Source of the DNA: Actinomycetes bacterium
GTDB taxonomy: Bacteria; Actinomycetota; Thermoleophilia; Solirubrobacterales; Solirubrobacteraceae
NCBI GenBank assembly: GCA_023405705.1
Contig: JAEXXR010000002.1
Location: forward strand, 1-6,627
Length of the DNA stretch: 6,627 nt
Reading direction: 5' to 3'
Shown one piece after another: positions 1 through 6,627 of the stretch. The position numbers and the translations under genes were made by a program. Below the pieces are notes generated by a model. It did not search any database and was not told the DNA's origin. It saw nothing but the letters and a program-made list of their open reading frames with translations. Every line of letters starts with the position of its first letter. Within the stretch, counting starts at the first letter, position 1.

Positions 1-54
1 ACCCTCGGGTTCGAGGTTCGGCTGAGGGAGTCCGGAGGCGGCGGTCATCGTCAT
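1..54 (-). CDS. 5' end of an unidentified gene, cut by the window edge
   Basis: An ATG at 54-52 overlaps the TGA stop of the FHA gene (53-51) in a classic ATGA junction. The frame stays open for 18 codons to the window edge and reads MTMTAASGLPQPNLEPEG. A second in-frame ATG lies at 48-46. No clear Shine-Dalgarno precedes either, so translational coupling to the FHA gene is the likely initiation mode. The visible peptide is a polar, Pro/Gly-rich leader without a recognisable domain, so no function can be given. In mycobacteria garA is followed by a MerR-family regulator, which makes that one possibility, but nothing in these 18 residues tests it. Confidence 0.6.
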   Translation of the reverse strand, partial: MTMTAASGLPQPNLEPEG

Positions 55-518
55 CGGGAGAGATACGCCAACTTGTACTTGCCCACCTGCAACTCGTCGC
101 CATCTTGCAGCTGGTGCGACTCGATCCGCTGACGGTTGACGTAGGTGCCGTTGAGCGAGCCGCAGTCGTCGAGGTACCAGTCGCGACCGCGACGGACCAG
201 CAGCGCGTGGTCGCGCGAGACCGTCACGTCGTCGAGGAAGATGTCGCTGTCGGGACGGCGGCCGATCGTCTTCTTCTCGCCGTCGATCGCGAACGACTCG
301 CCGGTGCGGCCCCCGCCGGAGCGGATCACCAGCGCGGCGCCGCGGGCGACGACGTCGTCGAGCTGGACCGGCTCGATCTCGCCGGTCTCGCCGATCCGGT
401 ACGTCGCGGTCGTGTCCGAGACGTCCGGCTCAGAGGTCGCCAGGAAGGCGCCGCAGCGCTGGCAGTAGTTCGCGCCGACGGCGTTGGCGAAGCCGCATTC
501 AGGGCAGTGGAGCGCCAC
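51..518 (-). CDS. Zinc-ribbon and FHA-domain signalling protein, GarA/OdhI-like
   Basis: This 155-residue cytoplasmic protein has two recognisable parts. Residues 5-22 form a zinc ribbon with two CxxC knuckles (C5, C8, C19, C22). Residues about 63-153 form a forkhead-associated domain, a phosphothreonine-binding fold, with the conserved IGRR (G86, R87), SRDH (S101, H104) and LNGT (N123, G124) landmarks. Between them lies DTTATYR (residues 35-41), resembling the ETTSVFR motif near the N-terminus of GarA/OdhI, where Ser/Thr kinases PknB/PknG phosphorylate adjacent threonines and the tail then binds its own FHA domain. GarA controls 2-oxoglutarate and glutamate enzymes; whether this protein has the same targets is unknown, and the zinc ribbon is not part of GarA. 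The start is GTG at 518, with a weak GGGGA 6 nt upstream. It lies 21 nt after the rsiG-like gene and overlaps the next gene by 4 nt, so it is very probably in that operon. Confidence 0.93.
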   Translation of the reverse strand: MALHCPECGFANAVGANYCQRCGAFLATSEPDVSDTTATYRIGETGEIEPVQLDDVVARGAALVIRSGGGRTGESFAIDGEKKTIGRRPDSDIFLDDVTVSRDHALLVRRGRDWYLDDCGSLNGTYVNRQRIESHQLQDGDELQVGKYKLAYLSR

Positions 519-539
519 CGGAATCCCCGCCAGTCGCCT

Positions 540-794
540 CTAGCTCTGCTCTCCGCCCGGCACGCGGCCGGAGAGGATGTCCGTCAGCTTCTCGACGTCG
601 GCGCCGGAGATGACGTCCACCCCGCCCTCGTGCTTCTTGCGCAGCCGGTTGACCAGCTCCGCGCGCAGGATGTCGATCTTGCCGTGCAGGATCCGCCGTC
701 TGTAGGAGACCTCGATCTCCTCCTCGGTCATCTGCTGGATGAGGTCCTTGAGCTCTCTGTCCGTCAGCGAGCCGAGGTCCGGGAAGGTGTCCAT
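540..794 (-). CDS. rsiG: RsiG-like c-di-GMP-binding anti-sigma factor (single-motif type)
   Basis: This is a small 84-residue, highly charged, mostly helical protein. Residues 11-54 look like one long helix. Within it, E26-x3-S30-x2-R33-x3-H37-x3-D41 matches the c-di-GMP signature of RsiG, E(x3)S(x2)R(x3)Q(x3)D, at four of five positions, with His replacing Gln. In Streptomyces RsiG holds the sigma factor WhiG inactive when c-di-GMP is bound and carries two motif copies; in Rubrobacter a one-motif protein works as a homodimer. The single copy here suggests the homodimer type. The tail (residues 55-84) may pack as a short second helix. An ACGGAG Shine-Dalgarno lies 12 nt from this ATG and 9 nt from a GTG just before it, so the start may be GTG at 797 (85 residues). 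The gene has its own promoter and leads the operon with the FHA gene. No whiG is visible in the window. It could instead be a related helical protein with another sigma partner. Confidence 0.8.
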   Translation of the reverse strand: MDTFPDLGSLTDRELKDLIQQMTEEEIEVSYRRRILHGKIDILRAELVNRLRKKHEGGVDVISGADVEKLTDILSGRVPGGEQS

Positions 795-810
795 CACGTG
801 CGGTTGCTCC
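786..810 (-). promoter_or_regulatory. Ribosome binding site and alternative starts of the rsiG-like gene
   Basis: On the minus strand ACGGAG is followed by CAACCGCAC and then GTGATGGAC. The core GGAG is 9 nt from GTG (797-795) and 12 nt from ATG (794-792). Spacing favours the GTG, while codon preference favours the ATG; the two choices differ by one residue. Confidence 0.55.
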
Positions 811-840
811 GTTCGAAATCGCGCGGGGGCGAGACTGTTC

Positions 841-869
841 ACTATACCGTCGGCCGGACGAGGCCTCAA
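841..869 (-). promoter_or_regulatory. Housekeeping-type promoter of the rsiG-FHA operon
   Basis: On the minus strand the -35 hexamer TTGAGG (869-864) is separated by exactly 17 nt from the -10 hexamer TATAGT (846-841). This is the best sigma-70/HrdB-like promoter in the window. A start site about 7 nt downstream (near 834) would give a leader of roughly 40 nt carrying the ACGGAG ribosome binding site. The promoter lies in the 89-nt gap after pgsA, so the signalling operon can be transcribed separately from proS-pgsA. The -35 is embedded in an inverted repeat. Confidence 0.75.
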
Positions 870-882
870 GTTGAGCTTGAGG
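864..882. repeat. Perfect 7-5-7 inverted repeat overlapping the -35
   Basis: On the minus strand the sequence reads CCTCAAG-CTCAA-CTTGAGG, two perfect 7-nt arms around a 5-nt spacer. It begins 1 nt after the pgsA stop codon and its second arm contains the -35 hexamer TTGAGG. It may be an operator for a dimeric regulator, a hairpin in the pgsA 3' end, or both. No U-run follows, so a conventional intrinsic terminator is less likely. Confidence 0.6.
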
Positions 883-883
883 G

Positions 884-1579
884 TCAGCTTGCAGGCGGGC
901 TTGCGCCGCCCTCGTTCGCGCGCAACGTCGCCAACCCGTCGCGCACGTAGAGGACGGTCGCGGTGAGCGCGAGCGCGAGGCCGGCGTAGAGCATGATCTC
1001 GCCGAGCGTCTGCAGCCCGCACATCGGGAAGAAGAGGCCGCCCATCACGGGCGCGACCGCCAGCCGGCCGGGCCAGTTGATCGCCAGGTCGATGCCGTGG
1101 CGCAGGCCCCACTGGGCGATCACGAGCATCGCCAGCTCGCGCGCGACGAGCACGGCGATCGCCCACCGCGGCAGCAGCTCGAAGTGCCAGCAGACGACGA
1201 CGCCGGAGATCACCAGCAGCCGGTCGGTGACGGGGTCCATCAGCGCGCCGAGGCGGCTGTACTGGCGCGTCACGCGCGCAGCGATCCCGTCGGCGTAGTC
1301 GCCCCAGCCGATCACGGCGAAGAGGAAGGCCGGCCAGAAGCCGATCCCGTCGCCGCTGTCGAAGGCGACGACCAGGAAGACGGGGATCAGCGCGATCCGC
1401 ACGAAGCCGATCGCGTTCGGGATCGTCCACGGGTTGAGCGGCGCGCCGGCGACCGTCGCCGGCTGCGGCGGCCCCGAGCGGTCCAGGCCGGAGAGCCGCT
1501 TGAACGTCAGCTTCTGGCGCGGAGGCTCGGGGGCGGGCCCGCCCGCCGGACCTCCGCCGCTCAGGGCAGGGTCTCCCAC
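884..1579 (-). CDS. pgsA: CDP-alcohol phosphatidyltransferase, probably phosphatidylglycerophosphate synthase
   Basis: This 231-residue membrane enzyme carries the complete CDP-alcohol phosphatidyltransferase signature D94-x2-D97-G98-x2-A101-R102-x8-G111-x3-D115-x3-D119, which binds divalent metal and the CDP-diacylglycerol headgroup. Hydrophobic stretches near residues 55-73, 80-93, 120-136, 139-156, 174-191 and 193-212 fit the family's usual six-helix fold. The NPWTIPNAIGFVRI segment before helix 1 resembles the usual PgsA start, so the product is probably phosphatidylglycerophosphate made from CDP-diacylglycerol and glycerol-3-phosphate, in the anionic phospholipid pathway. A cardiolipin-synthase or phosphatidylinositol-type acceptor cannot be excluded. 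The first 47 residues are an unusual Pro/Gly-rich cytoplasmic extension. The start is GTG at 1579, with a short AAGG 4 nt upstream, and overlaps the proS 3' end by 19 nt, implying co-transcription and translational coupling with proS. Confidence 0.9.
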   Translation of the reverse strand: MGDPALSGGGPAGGPAPEPPRQKLTFKRLSGLDRSGPPQPATVAGAPLNPWTIPNAIGFVRIALIPVFLVVAFDSGDGIGFWPAFLFAVIGWGDYADGIAARVTRQYSRLGALMDPVTDRLLVISGVVVCWHFELLPRWAIAVLVARELAMLVIAQWGLRHGIDLAINWPGRLAVAPVMGGLFFPMCGLQTLGEIMLYAGLALALTATVLYVRDGLATLRANEGGASPPAS

Positions 1580-3243
1580 AGCGCCTTGACCGCCTCGGCG
1601 GCGCCGTCGAGCGGGAGCGAGCGTCTCTCGCGGCCGCGGCGCAGCTGGATCTCCAGCTCACCCCCGGCGAGCGTGCGCTTGCCGACGGTCACGCGCAGCG
1701 GCGCGCCGAGCAGCTCGGCGTCGGCGAACTTCTCCCCCGGGCCGGCGTCGCGGTCGTCGTAGAGGACGTCGAGGCCGGTCGCCTTCAGCTGCTCGTAGAG
1801 GCCGTCCGCGAACGTCCGCTCCTCGCTCTCCCCTCTGGAGATCACGACCAGCTCGACGTCGAACGGCGCGATCGCGCGCGGCCAGGCGATGCCGGCGTCG
1901 TCGGCGTACTGCTCGACGGCGGCGGCGACGATGCGCGCCGGGCCGATCCCGTAGCAGCCCATCACGATCTGCTGCTGTCTGCCGCTCTCGTCGAGGTAGC
2001 TCGCGCCGAGCGCGGCGGAGTATCTGGTGCCGAGCTTGAAGATGTTGCCGACCTCGATCGCCTTCTCGATCCGGATCGGGTTGCCGTTCACGGTGTCGCC
2101 CGGCTCGACCGCGCGCACGTCGGCACGCTCGAACGGGAAGTCGCGGCCCGGCTCGACGCCGCGCAGGTGGAAGTCGCCGCGGTTGGCGCCGGTCACGTAG
2201 CCGCCGTCGCCGACGGCCGTGTCGAGCACGATCGGGGCGTTCGCACCGACCGGGCCGATGAAGCCGGCGGGGCCGATCTTCGTGGCGAACTCGTCCGGCG
2301 TCGCGGGACGGCACTGCGTGCCGAGCGCGTTGCGCAGCTTGACCTCGTTGACCCTGTGGTCGCCGCGCACCATCACGAGCACGAGCCCGCGGCCCTCGGC
2401 GATCACCGGGAAGGCCTTCAGCACGGCGCCCTGCGGCACGCCGAGGCGGCGTGCGACGTCCTCGACGGTCGTCAGCCCGGGCGTGTGGACCTCCTCGGGC
2501 TGCGGCAGCGGCGCCGGCAGCTCGATCGCCTGCGGCTCGGCCGAGGCGACCTCGAGGTTGGCGGCGTAGCCCGGCGCGAGCGCGACCTCGTCCTCGCCGG
2601 CGGTGCACGGCGCCATGTACTCGTGGGCGTCGGTGCCGCCCATCATCCCGACGTCGGACTGGACCCGGTACCACTCCAGTCCGCTGCGGTCGAAGATGCG
2701 GTCGTAGGCGGCGATGTGCTTCTCGTAGGCGACGTCGAGGCCGGCCTCGTCGCGGTCGAACGAGTACGCGTCCTTCATGCGGAACTCGCGCGTGCGCAGG
2801 ACGCCGGCGCGCGGGCGCGGCTCGTCCCGCTCCTTCACCTGGATCTGGTAGAGGATCTGCGGCAGGTCGCGGTAGGAGCGCACGACCTGGGCGACGTGGG
2901 TGGTGACGATCTCCTCGTGGGTCATCGCCAGCACCATCTCGGTGCCCTTGCGGTCCTCCAGCTTGAAGATCTCGTCGATCTCGATGCGGCCCGTGCGGCG
3001 CCACGGATCGGCCGGGTTGAGCAGCGGCATCAGCAGCTCCTGACCGCCGATCGCGTCCATCTCCTCGCGGATGATCTGCTCGACCTTGCGATGGACCCGC
3101 CAGCCCGCCGGGAGGTACGTCCACAGCCCGGCGCCGAGCTGACGGATCAGCCCGGCCCGGACCATCAGCTTGTGCGAGATCGCCTCGGCGTCAGCCGGGG
3201 CCTGCTTCTCGGTCGGGAGGAGGTAGGCGCTCAGACGGGTCAT
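1561..3243 (-). CDS. proS: Prolyl-tRNA synthetase, bacterial type with editing domain
   Basis: This 560-residue cytoplasmic class II aminoacyl-tRNA synthetase attaches proline to tRNA-Pro; the E. coli enzyme has 572 residues. The N-terminal catalytic core includes the motif 1 region (about 40-77), the THEE substrate loop (T108, E110) and motif 2 TREFRMKDAYSFD (151-163). A YbaK-like insertion (about 225-395) lies between motifs 2 and 3 and contains K276 in VLKAFPV, matching the lysine required for clearing mischarged alanyl-tRNA-Pro. Motif 3 is MGCYGIGPARIVAAA (428-442). The C-terminal anticodon-binding domain spans about 460-560. This order is the bacterial type rather than the eukaryote/archaeal type. 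ATG at 3243 gives the canonical N-terminus with no Shine-Dalgarno, and a TAGGCT -10-like hexamer sits 9 nt upstream, so the mRNA may be almost leaderless. It is followed by pgsA with a 19-nt overlap. Confidence 0.98.
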   Translation of the reverse strand: MTRLSAYLLPTEKQAPADAEAISHKLMVRAGLIRQLGAGLWTYLPAGWRVHRKVEQIIREEMDAIGGQELLMPLLNPADPWRRTGRIEIDEIFKLEDRKGTEMVLAMTHEEIVTTHVAQVVRSYRDLPQILYQIQVKERDEPRPRAGVLRTREFRMKDAYSFDRDEAGLDVAYEKHIAAYDRIFDRSGLEWYRVQSDVGMMGGTDAHEYMAPCTAGEDEVALAPGYAANLEVASAEPQAIELPAPLPQPEEVHTPGLTTVEDVARRLGVPQGAVLKAFPVIAEGRGLVLVMVRGDHRVNEVKLRNALGTQCRPATPDEFATKIGPAGFIGPVGANAPIVLDTAVGDGGYVTGANRGDFHLRGVEPGRDFPFERADVRAVEPGDTVNGNPIRIEKAIEVGNIFKLGTRYSAALGASYLDESGRQQQIVMGCYGIGPARIVAAAVEQYADDAGIAWPRAIAPFDVELVVISRGESEERTFADGLYEQLKATGLDVLYDDRDAGPGEKFADAELLGAPLRVTVGKRTLAGGELEIQLRRGRERRSLPLDGAAEAVKALWETLP

Positions 3244-3252
3244 GGGCGCGGA

Positions 3253-3258
3253 AGCCTA
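3253..3258 (-). promoter_or_regulatory. -10 element candidate of proS (near-leaderless)
   Basis: On the minus strand TAGGCT is followed by 9 nt and the proS ATG. A start site at the usual distance would fall within a few bases of the start codon. The 9-mer CGGTAGGCT also occurs upstream of the alpha/beta hydrolase gene. No convincing -35 is visible 16-18 nt upstream. Confidence 0.45.
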
Positions 3259-3302
3259 CCGGCAGCGGGACGGACCGAGCCGCCCCGCCGCGACGGTGCG
3301 GC

Positions 3303-4262
3303 TCAGCGGACGTACTGCTTGTAGCGCAGCAGGCGCTGGTAGGCCGGACGGGGCGCGCCGCTGGCGTCGAGCATCGCCGAGTCCCAGCGGTTGTCTCTCG
3401 CCGCCGCGAACCAGTTGTAGAGGTAGATGCGATCGATCTTGCTGCGGTACTTGCGCGCCTGCGCGAAGAGCGCGTCGATCGCTCTCGCCTGGCGCTTGAG
3501 GTCCGGGCGGAAGGTCTGACGGGCGTTCTGCGGCTGGAAGCGGTAGATGCCGCCGGTCTCGGTCAGCCAGATCTTGCCGGGGACGAGCTTGACGAGCTTG
3601 CGCAGCGAGCTGTTCTTGTCCTTCACGAAGCGGTTGACGTCCGTGTAGTTGTGCAGGCCCCACAGGCGCGGCGTGGCGATCTTGCGTCTCTTGAAGTTCG
3701 CCAGCAGCGATCTCGTGTAGTTGACCATGTTCGGCAGGTCCTGGATGTCGGCGCCGAGCACGGTGCACCCGCGGCAGTTCTTCTTGACGATGCTGTAGTA
3801 CGTCACGACCATCTCGGGTCTGTGCGCCGTCGGCTGCGTGAGGTTGTTGACCTCGTTCCACGGCTGGTAGATGCGCACGCCCGGCCACGCCTTGCGGAAG
3901 GCCTTGAACGCCTTCGTGAACTGCGCCGCCGTCGGCGCCTTGCAGGTCTTGCGGCCGTTCAGGTTCGGGCACTGCATCCCCCACGGCGGGTTGAACGCGA
4001 CGACGATCTCCTGGCCGGCCGCCTCGGCGGCGTCCATCCAGTCGTTCGTGTACGCCTTCACGTCCTTCTTCAGCGCCGCGTCGTAGGGCACGATCAGCCG
4101 CGTGCGGTCCGATCCGAGCTTCAGGTAGTGCTCGTTCGTGAAGAGCGCGCCGTCCTGGTCACCGACCCCGACGACGAGGGCGTTGCTCGTGGCCGGCGCG
4201 ATCAGCGCGGCGGCGAGAAGCGCTCCCGCCAGGACGGCGGACAGCGTGCGACGAAGCTTCAC
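3303..4262 (-). CDS. Secreted TIM-barrel glycoside-hydrolase-like protein (clan GH-A style)
   Basis: This 319-residue protein starts with a Sec signal peptide: positive MKLRR, a hydrophobic core (about 7-22) and a likely cleavage after SNA (residue 28), leaving about 291 secreted residues. The rest fits a retaining (beta/alpha)8 glycosidase of the GH-A type. WNEVNN provides the Asn-Glu pair (N136, E137) expected at the end of strand 4 as acid/base, and WLTETGG provides E235 as nucleophile at strand 7. GLHNYTD (202-208, with H204 and Y206) and LYNWF (281-285, with W284) fit substrate-contact positions on strands 6 and 8. C98/C107 and C163/C166 could form disulfides. The specific family (GH5, GH39 or another) and substrate are not determinable; a cell-wall or environmental polysaccharide is plausible. 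The start is GTG at 4262 with an AAAGGA Shine-Dalgarno 8 nt upstream. The gene sits alone between a hairpin and proS, so it is probably a single transcription unit. Confidence 0.82.
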   Translation of the reverse strand: MKLRRTLSAVLAGALLAAALIAPATSNALVVGVGDQDGALFTNEHYLKLGSDRTRLIVPYDAALKKDVKAYTNDWMDAAEAAGQEIVVAFNPPWGMQCPNLNGRKTCKAPTAAQFTKAFKAFRKAWPGVRIYQPWNEVNNLTQPTAHRPEMVVTYYSIVKKNCRGCTVLGADIQDLPNMVNYTRSLLANFKRRKIATPRLWGLHNYTDVNRFVKDKNSSLRKLVKLVPGKIWLTETGGIYRFQPQNARQTFRPDLKRQARAIDALFAQARKYRSKIDRIYLYNWFAAARDNRWDSAMLDASGAPRPAYQRLLRYKQYVR

Positions 4263-4276
4263 GACGAAGGTCCTTT
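4263..4276 (-). promoter_or_regulatory. Strong Shine-Dalgarno of the secreted GH-like gene
   Basis: On the minus strand AAAGGA is followed by 8 nt (CCTTCGTC) and the GTG start, a near-ideal ribosome binding site. It decides the GTG at 4262 as the start, which also gives a complete signal peptide. Confidence 0.75.
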
Positions 4277-4332
4277 CGGGGGGATTCGGTGCAGGGCCGC
4301 GCGCCGCGTGGCACGGCGCGAGCCGACGAGAG

Positions 4333-4360
4333 ACTGTAGCGAGGCGGCTGGCGGCCTCAT
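4333..4360 (-). promoter_or_regulatory. Promoter candidate of the secreted GH-like gene
   Basis: On the minus strand a -10-like TACAGT (4338-4333) has ATGAGG (4360-4355) 16 nt upstream, a weak -35. Transcription starting near 4326 would leave a leader of about 65 nt before the GTG start. The hexamers resemble the TTGAGG/TATAGT pair before the rsiG-like gene but are poorer matches. Confidence 0.4.
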
Positions 4361-4390
4361 GGGGATGAACCCGCGCGGCCGCCCTTCGAT

Positions 4391-4413
4391 TCGGTCCGGC
4401 GCCGGCGGACCGA
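4391..4413 (-). terminator. Hairpin directly after the alpha/beta hydrolase stop
   Basis: Immediately after the hydrolase TGA the minus strand has perfect 8-nt arms TCGGTCCG and CGGACCGA around a 7-nt loop (CCGGCGC). The stem is very GC-rich. No U-run follows (next bases ATCGAAGGGC), so it resembles the tail-less hairpins often seen at gene ends in high-GC actinobacteria. It probably separates the hydrolase from the GH-like gene. Confidence 0.6.
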
Positions 4414-5199
4414 TCAGGCGCCGGCGCTGGCGGTCCGCAGCAGCGCGGCGACCTGGTCGGGGTCGTCGTGCATCGGCAGATGGCCGCAGCGGTCGAGCAG
4501 GACGTGCCGTGCCCGCGGCAGCGCCGCCTGCGCCCGGCGCGGCTGGCTCGGGTACAGCAGCAGGCGGTCGCGGGTCCCCCACCCGATCGTCACGGGCACG
4601 CCGTCGAGCTGATGGCCGTCGGCGAAGACGTAGCGGCCGAGCGGGCCGAGCGTCGCGTCGAAGGCCGGCGCGGCGCCGAGCATCCGCAGGTCCTCCTTGG
4701 CGACGTCGGCGTCGAGCTGCGCCGGATGGCCGTAGAAGGCGCCGAGCGCGACGACGCGGCCGGGCGCGGTCGAGACGAGCTTCTGCAGCCCGCCGAGCGC
4801 GTGGCGGGCGCCGAGGCGGCTGCCACGCAGGAGGACTCTGGAGTACACCGACTCCGGCTTGCTCCAGAAGCCGATCGGCGACAGCGCGGTCGCGCTCGCG
4901 ACGGCGCCGCGGCGGGCCAGCTCCAGGGCGATGCCGCCACCCATCGAGTTGCCGGCGACGTGGGGGCGCTCCAGGCCGGCGTCGGCGAAGAAGCGCTCGA
5001 CGGCGTCGACGTAGTCGGAGATCGCCAGGCCCGGGCCGAGCGGCAGCGGCGCCGAGTCGCCGAAGCCGGGCAGGTCGATCGCGAGCGTCTCGCGGTCGGT
5101 CAGCCGCTCCGCGACGGGATCCCACGCCCCGCGGCGGGCGCCGATGCCGTGGATCAGGACGAGCGGCGGCCCCTCGCCGCGACGGTCATGGACGAGCAT
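4414..5199 (-). CDS. Alpha/beta-fold hydrolase
   Basis: This 261-residue cytoplasmic alpha/beta hydrolase shows all the family landmarks: an oxyanion-hole loop HGIG (17-20), the nucleophile elbow GNSMGG with S85, the acid D211 in GTRDRLLL, and the catalytic H240 in CGHLPMHDDP. The DLPGFGDS segment (42-49) is typical of strand 4 in this superfamily. A mostly helical lid of about 85 residues (108-195) carries the substrate specificity and is not recognisable, so esterase, C-C hydrolase (MhpC/BphD-like), haloperoxidase-like or epoxide-type activity are all possible. With Ser as nucleophile, haloalkane dehalogenase is unlikely. There is no signal peptide. The ATG at 5199 has no Shine-Dalgarno, but a TAGGCT hexamer lies 7 nt upstream, suggesting a leaderless mRNA. 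It follows ispG by 63 nt and ends at a hairpin, so it may be transcribed alone. Confidence 0.92.
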   Translation of the reverse strand: MLVHDRRGEGPPLVLIHGIGARRGAWDPVAERLTDRETLAIDLPGFGDSAPLPLGPGLAISDYVDAVERFFADAGLERPHVAGNSMGGGIALELARRGAVASATALSPIGFWSKPESVYSRVLLRGSRLGARHALGGLQKLVSTAPGRVVALGAFYGHPAQLDADVAKEDLRMLGAAPAFDATLGPLGRYVFADGHQLDGVPVTIGWGTRDRLLLYPSQPRRAQAALPRARHVLLDRCGHLPMHDDPDQVAALLRTASAGA

Positions 5200-5206
5200 G
5201 GCCGCG

Positions 5207-5212
5207 AGCCTA
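5207..5212 (-). promoter_or_regulatory. -10 element candidate of the alpha/beta hydrolase (leaderless)
   Basis: On the minus strand TAGGCT is followed by exactly 7 nt and the ATG, the distance expected if transcription starts at the A of the start codon. There is no Shine-Dalgarno. The surrounding CGGTAGGCT is identical to that before proS. No clear -35 is seen. Confidence 0.5.
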
Positions 5213-5262
5213 CCGCCGCACCCGTCGGCGCGGCGCAGGTTCTGGCTGGCCGGCCAGTCGGT

Positions 5263-6555
5263 CTACGAACGCGTGAAGCGGCGGCCGGCCGTCGGCGATG
5301 CGGCCTCGTCGAGACGCGCGGCGCTGCCGGCCGCGGCCAGCTCGCCGTCGTCGGCCGCGGCGGCCATCTCGGCCTCGGCGGCGGCCTTCTCGGCGGCGGC
5401 GAGGCGCTCGGGGGTCATCTCGCCGGCGTTCTCGGCCTCGATCGCCTCCAGCCAGGCCGCTCCCTCGGCGGCCTCGCCGGCGTCGACGTCGACCTTCTTG
5501 CCCGACTTGACGTACTTGTCGATCTCGGCGAAGAGCGTGTCGACGAGCTGCTCCTGCGGGACCTTGCGCAGCGCTCTGCCGCGGCTGAAGATCAGGCCCT
5601 CGTTCTTGGCGCCGGTGATGCCGAAGTCGGCGTGCGACGCCTCGCCGATGCCGTTGACTGCGCAGCCGAGCACGGCGACCTCGATCGGGTCGGCGTACGC
5701 CTCCAGGCGGCGCTCGATCTCGGCGACGACGGTGTCCATGTCGAACTGCAGGCGGCCGCAGGTCGGACAGGCGATCAGCACGGGGCCGCGGTCGCGCAGC
5801 TGGAGCGCCTTCAGGATCTCCCAGGCGACCTTCACCTCCTCCTCCGCGTGGAAGGTGGAGAGCGAGATGCGGATCGTGTCGCCGATGCCGTCGGCGAGCA
5901 GCGTGCCGAGGCCGACGGAGGACTTGAGCGAGCCCGACCACTTCGTGCCGGCCTCGGTGATGCCGAGGTGGAGCGGGTACGGGATCCGCTCGCTCAGCAG
6001 GCGGTTCGACGCGATCGTGTTCGGCACGTTCGTCGACTTGATCGAGACCTTGAAGTCCTCGAACCGGAGCGACTCCATCAGCGCGACGAACTCGGTCGCG
6101 GCGGTCACGAGCGCCTCGACGCTGTTCTCGCGCTCGAGCGCGTGCAGGTGTCTCGGCAGCGAGCCGGAGTTGACGCCGATGCGGATCGGCACGCCGGCCG
6201 CTCTCGCCTTCTCGGCGACGAGCGCGACCTTGTCGGGGCCGCCGATGTTGCCGGGGTTGAGGCGGATGCAGTGGGCGCCCGCGTCGATCGCCTTCAGCGC
6301 CAGCGTGTAGTTGAAGTGGATGTCCGCGATGATCGGGATCGGCGACTCGCGCACGATCGTCTTCAGCGCCTCGACGTCCTCGTCGCGCGGCACCGCGCAG
6401 CGGACGATGTCGGCGCCGGCCTCGGCGACGCGGCGGATCTGGGCCATCGTCGCCTGCAGGTCGGCGGTCTCGGTCTTCGTCATCGTCTGGACGGCGACGG
6501 GCGCGCCGCCGCCGATCGGCACGCCGCCGACGTGGATCTGCCGCTTTGAGGCCAT
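5263..6555 (-). CDS. ispG: 4-hydroxy-3-methylbut-2-en-1-yl diphosphate synthase with extended C-terminus
   Basis: IspG (GcpE) reduces methylerythritol cyclodiphosphate to HMBPP, the penultimate step of the MEP isoprenoid pathway, using a [4Fe-4S] cluster. Residues about 5-245 form the TIM barrel, with conserved VQTMTKTET (22-30), HCIRLNPGNIG (95-105) and IRIGVNSGSL (124-133). The reductase-like C-terminal domain supplies the cluster ligands C263 and C266 (CPTCGR), C298 and E305 (CAVNGIGE), with the same +7 spacing from Cys to Glu as E. coli C305/E312. NGIGE replaces the common NGPGE. The core ends near residue 352; the remaining 78 residues are an Ala/Glu-rich tail absent from typical 360-390-residue enzymes. 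The two-domain form lacks the large plant/Chlamydia insertion. ATG at 6555 has no Shine-Dalgarno but a TACACT hexamer 7 nt upstream. In many actinobacteria the gene follows dxr and an M50 protease. Confidence 0.97.
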   Translation of the reverse strand: MASKRQIHVGGVPIGGGAPVAVQTMTKTETADLQATMAQIRRVAEAGADIVRCAVPRDEDVEALKTIVRESPIPIIADIHFNYTLALKAIDAGAHCIRLNPGNIGGPDKVALVAEKARAAGVPIRIGVNSGSLPRHLHALERENSVEALVTAATEFVALMESLRFEDFKVSIKSTNVPNTIASNRLLSERIPYPLHLGITEAGTKWSGSLKSSVGLGTLLADGIGDTIRISLSTFHAEEEVKVAWEILKALQLRDRGPVLIACPTCGRLQFDMDTVVAEIERRLEAYADPIEVAVLGCAVNGIGEASHADFGITGAKNEGLIFSRGRALRKVPQEQLVDTLFAEIDKYVKSGKKVDVDAGEAAEGAAWLEAIEAENAGEMTPERLAAAEKAAAEAEMAAAADDGELAAAGSAARLDEAASPTAGRRFTRS

Positions 6556-6562
6556 GGCCCTG

Positions 6563-6568
6563 AGTGTA
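6563..6568 (-). promoter_or_regulatory. -10 element candidate of ispG (leaderless)
   Basis: On the minus strand TACACT is followed by 7 nt (CAGGGCC) and the ispG ATG, placing the predicted transcription start at or next to the start codon. The AGGG inside those 7 nt is too close to the ATG to act as a Shine-Dalgarno. No good -35 hexamer is visible, so this rests on the -10 match and spacing alone. Confidence 0.45.
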
Positions 6569-6591
6569 GACGCGGCCCTGCGGCGAGGACC

Positions 6592-6627
6592 TCAGCCCGC
6601 CGGGCGACCGGGCGCGGCGGCCACCGC
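6592..6627 (-). CDS. Possible 3' end of an upstream gene
   Basis: One minus-strand frame entering from the window edge reads AVAAAPGRPAG and stops at TGA (6594-6592), 36 nt upstream of ispG. The composition fits the low-complexity end of a GC-rich actinobacterial protein, and in related genomes an M50 site-2 protease often precedes ispG. Eleven codons cannot identify a gene, and the other two frames are also open here, so this is only a candidate. Confidence 0.3.
   Translation of the reverse strand, partial: AVAAAPGRPAG

Follow-up and report, generated by a model that had tools for sequence, protein, structure and literature searches.

A single-motif RsiG of Conexibacter type

We analysed a stretch of 6,627 nucleotides (contig JAEXXR010000002.1, positions 1 to 6,627, assembly GCA_023405705.1; the window below), and in particular the small rsiG gene at 540..794 on its reverse strand, which the initial annotation had put forward as an anti-sigma factor with an unusual residue in its cyclic di-GMP (c-di-GMP) signature. 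The gene product is very probably an ordinary single-motif Conexibacter RsiG, the counterpart of C. woesei RsiG: a homodimeric, c-di-GMP-armed factor that acts against the sigma factor WhiG. The protein is one more Conexibacter RsiG in a largely solved story, and only its surroundings go beyond routine annotation, with an FtsR-like sequence in an rsiG-garA-ftsR cluster and with fused RsiG dimers in the class.

The family, the motif, the gene context and the partner genes of relatives were all established in this analysis. Translation from the ATG at 794..792 gives 84 amino acids; the mechanical list of open reading frames (ORFs) fuses rsiG into a longer GTG-start ORF, 540-1661. A profile search confirmed the family: Pfam RsiG (PF22802) matches residues 3-73 with 70.7 bits against a cut-off of 27 (E 8.2e-20), and the top PDB sequence matches are solved RsiGs, 6pfj_T from S. 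venezuelae (E 5.9e-10) and 7lq2, 7lq3 and 7lq4 from R. radiotolerans (E ~2e-9). An NCBIfam scan of the protein returned no RsiG match. The closest named match is a protein of Conexibacter arvalis, 96% identical across the full length. The c-di-GMP signature E-x3-S-x2-R-x3-H-x3-D occupies codons 26-41 (672..719, reverse strand; translation EIEVSYRRRILHGKID) with E26, S30, R33, H37 and D41, the residues first reported for it, and agrees with the motif E(X)3S(X)2R(X)3[Q/H](X)3D. There is one copy in the 84 residues, so the single-motif state stands and the protein is not a two-motif (twin) RsiG. The AlphaFold2 single-chain model has a helix at 12-56 that bears the motif, a glycine break and a helix at 64-74 (mean predicted local distance difference test score 82.6); this layout agrees with the published glycine-linked coiled-coil helices (PMC8325347).

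Our genome-level statements concern relatives of the window organism. The five reference genomes were Conexibacter arvalis (G001), Conexibacter sp. CPCC 205762 (G002), Solirubrobacter taibaiensis (G003), S. soli (G004) and Svornostia abyssi (G005); "class" means the class to which C. arvalis belongs. In all five, the strongest sigma factor scores 278.6-287.9 bits on TIGR02479 (cut-off 189.6), and L084, the only WhiG scanned, passes the NCBIfam WhiG equivalog with 370 bits (cut-off 343). The sigma2 residues that contact c-di-GMP in S. venezuelae WhiG are K57, G61 and R62 (PMC8325347), and their equivalents, numbered by counting from the alignment, are kept in five of five as SPLVKYV[AS]GRM. Judged by its sequence, the strongest FliA/WhiG-family sigma of each relative is WhiG, and a WhiG partner was thus found in every one of these close relatives.

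The two proteins also go together more widely. Among 61 class genomes (WhiG at E <=1e-70), 54 have both, one has RsiG only (G046), one has WhiG only (G015) and five have neither (Fisher p 6e-6, with incomplete genomes as a possible confounder). WhiG is above its curated cut-off in 52 of the 61, an RsiG match is present in 308 of 399 class genomes, and each reference genome has 13 to 64 GGDEF proteins (E <=1e-25, n=5).

For C. woesei RsiG the ligand, the WhiG partner and self-interaction have been published, and for R. radiotolerans RsiG structures as well; in two-hybrid assays all five single-motif RsiGs assayed, C. woesei included, interacted with themselves (PMC8325347). By analogy with C. 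woesei, the window protein would share ligand, partner and self-interaction, and the initial reading of it as a homodimeric switch for c-di-GMP in a lineage that does not sporulate appears right by homology. Two copies of RsiG would pair as an antiparallel coiled coil whose two E-S-R-H-D motifs hold a c-di-GMP dimer, with His37 stacked on guanine, a role that Gln has in other RsiGs. Once loaded, the homodimer would then grip sigma2 and sigma4 of WhiG and bar it from RNA polymerase. A drop in c-di-GMP would release WhiG, and flagellar-type promoters, the presumed targets, would be read. The rsiG gene itself would be expressed from a sigma-70-type promoter as the first gene of rsiG-garA-ftsR, possibly under the control of FtsR.

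Gene neighbourhood

The rsiG gene leads a compact rsiG-garA/odhI-ftsR cluster on the reverse strand. After a gap of 21 bp comes a garA/odhI-like gene with a GTG start (51..518), which encodes a zinc ribbon and an FHA domain (PF00498, 80.2 bits; best NCBIfam match OdhI at 116 bits, under its cut-off of 200). The stop codon of this FHA gene (53-51) overlaps the ATG (54-52) of a MerR-type ftsR, of which the window holds only the start (1..54, read from sequence) before it ends. The full ftsR of C. arvalis (L001:10741-11601), the only homologue checked against the model, scores 218 bits on NCBIfam FtsR (cut-off 150). Upstream of rsiG lies a pgsA-type CDP-alcohol phosphatidyltransferase gene (884..1579, reverse strand; PF01066, 91.2 bits). 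The TTATYRI stretch before the FHA domain of 51-518 may, by analogy with GarA, be the self-binding phospho-threonine site.

We compared this arrangement with 80 related loci (78 for upstream stretches). The FHA gene comes immediately after rsiG in all 80, and an ftsR homologue follows in 72 of the 72 loci with room for it, so that the order known from the odhI/garA-ftsR cluster, FHA protein and then FtsR, is present in the window and kept throughout. In 70 of 71 loci with room, a pgsA gene of the same strand is found no more than 3.5 kb upstream, mostly adjacent to rsiG and in a few cases one gene off, and proS is upstream in 61 of 62. The excerpted text of PMC6683498 describes odhI/garA-ftsR as conserved in Actinobacteria, with a variable region upstream of odhI. 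The main text of the RsiG paper (PMC8325347) makes no mention of FHA, garA or ftsR, and we found no paper in the open-access literature that covers both RsiG and FtsR.

In a phylum-wide search of 246 genomes we compared the best 30 matching loci. Sixteen have FHA and ftsR-like neighbours, and all sixteen are single-motif. The other 14 have neither neighbour within ~1.5 kb (E 1e-6); ten of these are two-motif, one (L195) has a second, degenerate motif, and L188, L197 and L209 are the remaining three. At the start of one FHA-ftsR pair (L191 of G618), a Rubrobacter-like RsiG shares one 270-aa frame with the zinc ribbon after it, by fusion or by read-through. Elsewhere in the window, 3303-4262 encodes a 319-aa protein with no Pfam or NCBIfam match at E 1 that looks by eye like a secreted glycosidase-type protein.

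The rsiG promoter and a candidate FtsR operator

Reading the sequence upstream of rsiG, we identified a probable sigma-70-type promoter (841..869, reverse strand) with a -35 box TTGAGG (869-864), 17 bp, and a -10 box TATAGT (846-841). Of the 78 related upstream stretches, 37 contain the hexamer TATACT, where mononucleotide shuffles predict 0.4. The -35 box is overlapped by a palindrome, ACCCTCAAGCTCAACTTGAGG (864..884, reverse strand), which has a conserved core and which we regard as a candidate FtsR-like operator. In the excerpted text of PMC6683498 the C. glutamicum FtsR motif is AACCCTAAAGTAAAGGTTGAGGGTA; the candidate has the same half-sites and the same 7-bp spacing, and 15 of 25 positions are equal.

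To measure conservation we searched for the core CCTCAA-N7-TTGA in the 20-130 bases upstream of rsiG, with 19,474 stretches from elsewhere in these loci as controls. Upstream of rsiG the core is exact in 35 of the 78 loci, present with at most one mismatch in 64 and with at most two in 72; the corresponding numbers in the controls are 0, 23 and 330. With at most one mismatch it also stands upstream of the two-motif loci described below (type A 4/4, type B 6/7, type C 1/1), and even with two mismatches allowed it is missing upstream of all 8 Rubrobacter-like and all 10 Streptomyces-type loci inspected. The exact palindrome CTCAAG-N5-CTTGA occurs only once in C. arvalis, in the rsiG promoter; G002 has it there and at one further site, and G004 and G005 lack it.

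These matches suggest that FtsR may control the rsiG-garA-ftsR cluster. The palindrome could instead serve another regulator or belong to the promoter itself, which we consider the less likely reading, though one to be taken seriously. Operators of MerR-family regulators resemble each other, the SoxR site being an example, and the right half of the palindrome coincides with the -35 box. Several counts also weigh against an FtsR site. The exact palindrome has 10 matches in the five genomes against 16 for its reversed control, and for the core with one mismatch the two Conexibacter genomes give 72 matches (control 73) and 102 matches (control 115); because neither palindrome nor core is enriched genome-wide, a match to the sequence is by itself no sign of a regulon. 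In addition, the 78 loci share descent, so their agreement measures conservation and not 78 separate origins. What favours FtsR over another regulator is the match in half-sites and spacing to the published motif, the ftsR homologue two genes downstream of rsiG in every locus with room, the lack of a single exact core among the control stretches, and the restriction of the exact palindrome to the rsiG promoter in C. arvalis. If true, an FtsR site at rsiG would link cell-division control with c-di-GMP signalling.

A similar palindrome in G002 (L243:1501-1517) stands before an mIHF-like gene that is followed by a guanylate-kinase-like ORF (named by eye), and a near-identical site occurs in C. 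arvalis (G001:C4:61855). The G002 palindrome is possibly a second FtsR target.

Fused RsiGs within the class

Single-motif RsiGs had been found in three Thermoleophilia genomes, and twin-motif ones had been described in other groups (PMC8325347). We found more than one RsiG match in 35 of 399 class genomes, 12 of which have two motifs within a single reading frame; G020, G186 and G130 have the same match pattern, seen from the matches alone. Inspecting 55 further high-scoring RsiG loci of the class, beyond the 80 related ones, we counted 12 two-motif loci, 40 single-motif loci with a motif match (last residue D or E) and three (L180, L181, L183) without one. The two-motif loci fall into three types: type A (L163, L166, L167, L169), with halves of the form SY-x-RRILHGKID[IL]LRAELVNR; type B (L171, L173-L178), with halves of a different kind; and type C (L182), which resembles the Streptomyces-type twin. 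The FHA gene is next in all 12, ftsR then follows in 11 (L178 is at a contig end), and a pgsA match is present in 7 of the 12.

A search with a type A protein gave 1602 matches, and among the 117 checked of the best 120, at least 66 are two-motif: 63 type A-form proteins (P0121-P0183) together with P0184, P0186 and P0187. Contigs of the listed two-motif proteins are up to 285 kb long, and Solirubrobacterales bacterium is named for P0136, P0163 and P0179. Some genomes have additional RsiG-like matches, most of them weak, on other contigs (six in total in G008, four each in G140, G158, G180 and G311), which may be paralogues or binning errors.

In the 18 type A proteins compared, the halves share 47-68% identity, and their identity to the nearest single-motif protein is 62-81%; for type B the two ranges are 45-55% and 53-72%. 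Streptomyces-type halves have 19-38% identity to one another, and no single-motif protein is more than 43% identical to a second half of this type. The string ELVNR is found in 18 of 18 type A first halves, 16 of 18 second halves and 41 of 59 single-motif proteins, and in none of 14 type B, 20 Streptomyces-type and 7 Rubrobacter-like segments. In the tree, which has many weak forks, type A halves, apart from the second one of P0187, stand among Solirubrobacter-like single-motif proteins; those of type B stand near another single-motif group.

The identities of the halves to local single-motif proteins, the ELVNR signature and the placement in the tree favour separate fusions in place, and this suggests that the joining of the homodimer into a single chain happened more than once. 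Approximately unbiased tests on 53 columns, however, reject none of the one-origin groupings, and a twin-motif ancestor with later losses, or gene conversion, is a possible alternative. The initial annotation had called the window protein ancestral-type; this is also what the authors of PMC8325347 inferred, and the fused forms in the class make the history less simple. We give about an even chance to the combined picture for the class, in which rsiG heads an FtsR-controlled rsiG-garA-ftsR operon and the homodimer was fused in place at least twice (types A and B), apart from the Streptomyces twin. We found no report of the cluster with its operator candidate, or of two-motif RsiGs in the class, in the open-access literature, a search that leaves most subscription papers outside. 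The fused dimers in the class are further cases for the published model, in which the homodimer became one chain by internal duplication, and separate fusions, if true, would be a natural repeat of this homodimer-to-monomer step.

The sigma target and its promoters

At least two sigmas exceed the FliA/WhiG cut-off in every one of the five relatives, with a third in S. abyssi, so we considered whether RsiG targets a second, FliA-like sigma in place of or besides WhiG. In G003 the second FliA-like sigma shares a contig with flagellar-type genes (L128). We searched the five genomes for WhiG/FliA-type sites with the pattern TAAA-N15-GCCGATAA, allowing one mismatch and using the reversed pattern as control, and found 20 sites against 1, with none in G005. 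Ten sites are in the two Conexibacter genomes, seven of them reading GCCGATCA. Named by eye, the ORFs beside the Conexibacter sites include those for flagellar export, flagellin and methyl-accepting-type proteins; those beside the Solirubrobacter sites include a pilin followed by a PilM-like gene (an exact match), a further PilM-like gene and genes resembling FlgL, FliW and CsrA. For several sites the gene that follows has no evident connection, for example one for a ribosomal protein or for an acyltransferase. PilM was detected in 3 of the 5 reference genomes and in neither Conexibacter; the output in Rubrobacter is type IV pili and c-di-GMP enzymes (PMC8325347).

Since WhiG and FliA recognise the same type of promoter, any of these sites could belong to either sigma, and the flagellar genes next to the Conexibacter sites would suit a FliA-like target. 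Still, such a target is improbable. The second-best sigmas (L086-L090) keep the K and have lost the G and the R of the three c-di-GMP-contacting residues in all five genomes, L090 of C. arvalis reaches 199 bits where the WhiG cut-off is 343, and RsiG presence follows WhiG across genomes. We conclude that WhiG is the probable target.

The histidine of the motif

The Gln-to-His change at position 37 had been singled out as odd, and it is neither odd nor new. Histidine stands at the equivalent position in all of the best 120 homologues (of 8000 scored) and in 80 of 80 related loci, which answers yes to whether it is conserved in related genomes. The 40 single-motif loci from the further set comprise 36 with H and 4 with Q (L091, L093, L108, L172). 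Rubrobacter-like RsiGs, by our own grouping, have Q in seven of seven, and L196, beside them in the tree, has H. The published motif gives this position as [Q/H], Gln in motif 1 is often replaced by His, His is said to be able to form the same stacking contact, and C. woesei RsiG is named as an H form (PMC8325347). Histidine here is ordinary and already published.

The dissociation constant of C. woesei RsiG for c-di-GMP is 25 µM alone and 1.7 µM with WhiG, and that of R. radiotolerans RsiG, a Q form, is 12 µM and 0.9 µM (PMC8325347). The affinity of the H form is only about two-fold lower, which gives no sign that His has a strong effect. That His makes a functionally different RsiG, with altered affinity or another c-di-GMP oligomer state, might be argued from the Gln that stacks on guanine in the solved complex (PMC8325347) and from the Q of the Rubrobacter-like proteins, but it is very unlikely given that His is the rule near the window, that both forms coexist within the class, and that the C. 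woesei H form has near-normal affinity with ~15-fold enhancement by WhiG (PMC8325347).

Comparison with known systems

The closest known system is C. woesei RsiG (PMC8325347), which like the window protein is a single-motif H form from the same genus, although from another species. R. radiotolerans RsiG (7lq2, 7lq3, 7lq4) is likewise a single-motif homodimer but has Gln where the window protein has His. Rubrobacter-like loci have the same gene order as the window, rsiG-FHA-ftsR-like, whereas the FtsR-like core is absent from all eight of them (more than two mismatches). S. venezuelae RsiG (AmfC; 6pfj, 6pfv) shares the motif, the ligand logic and the WhiG partner but carries two diverged motifs per chain, and Streptomyces-type twin loci, unlike the window, have no FHA or ftsR match within ~1.5 kb. 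The odhI/garA-ftsR cluster, as given in the excerpted text of PMC6683498, has the FHA gene and then ftsR, as in the window; the window cluster has rsiG before the FHA gene, in the region upstream of odhI that the same excerpt calls variable.
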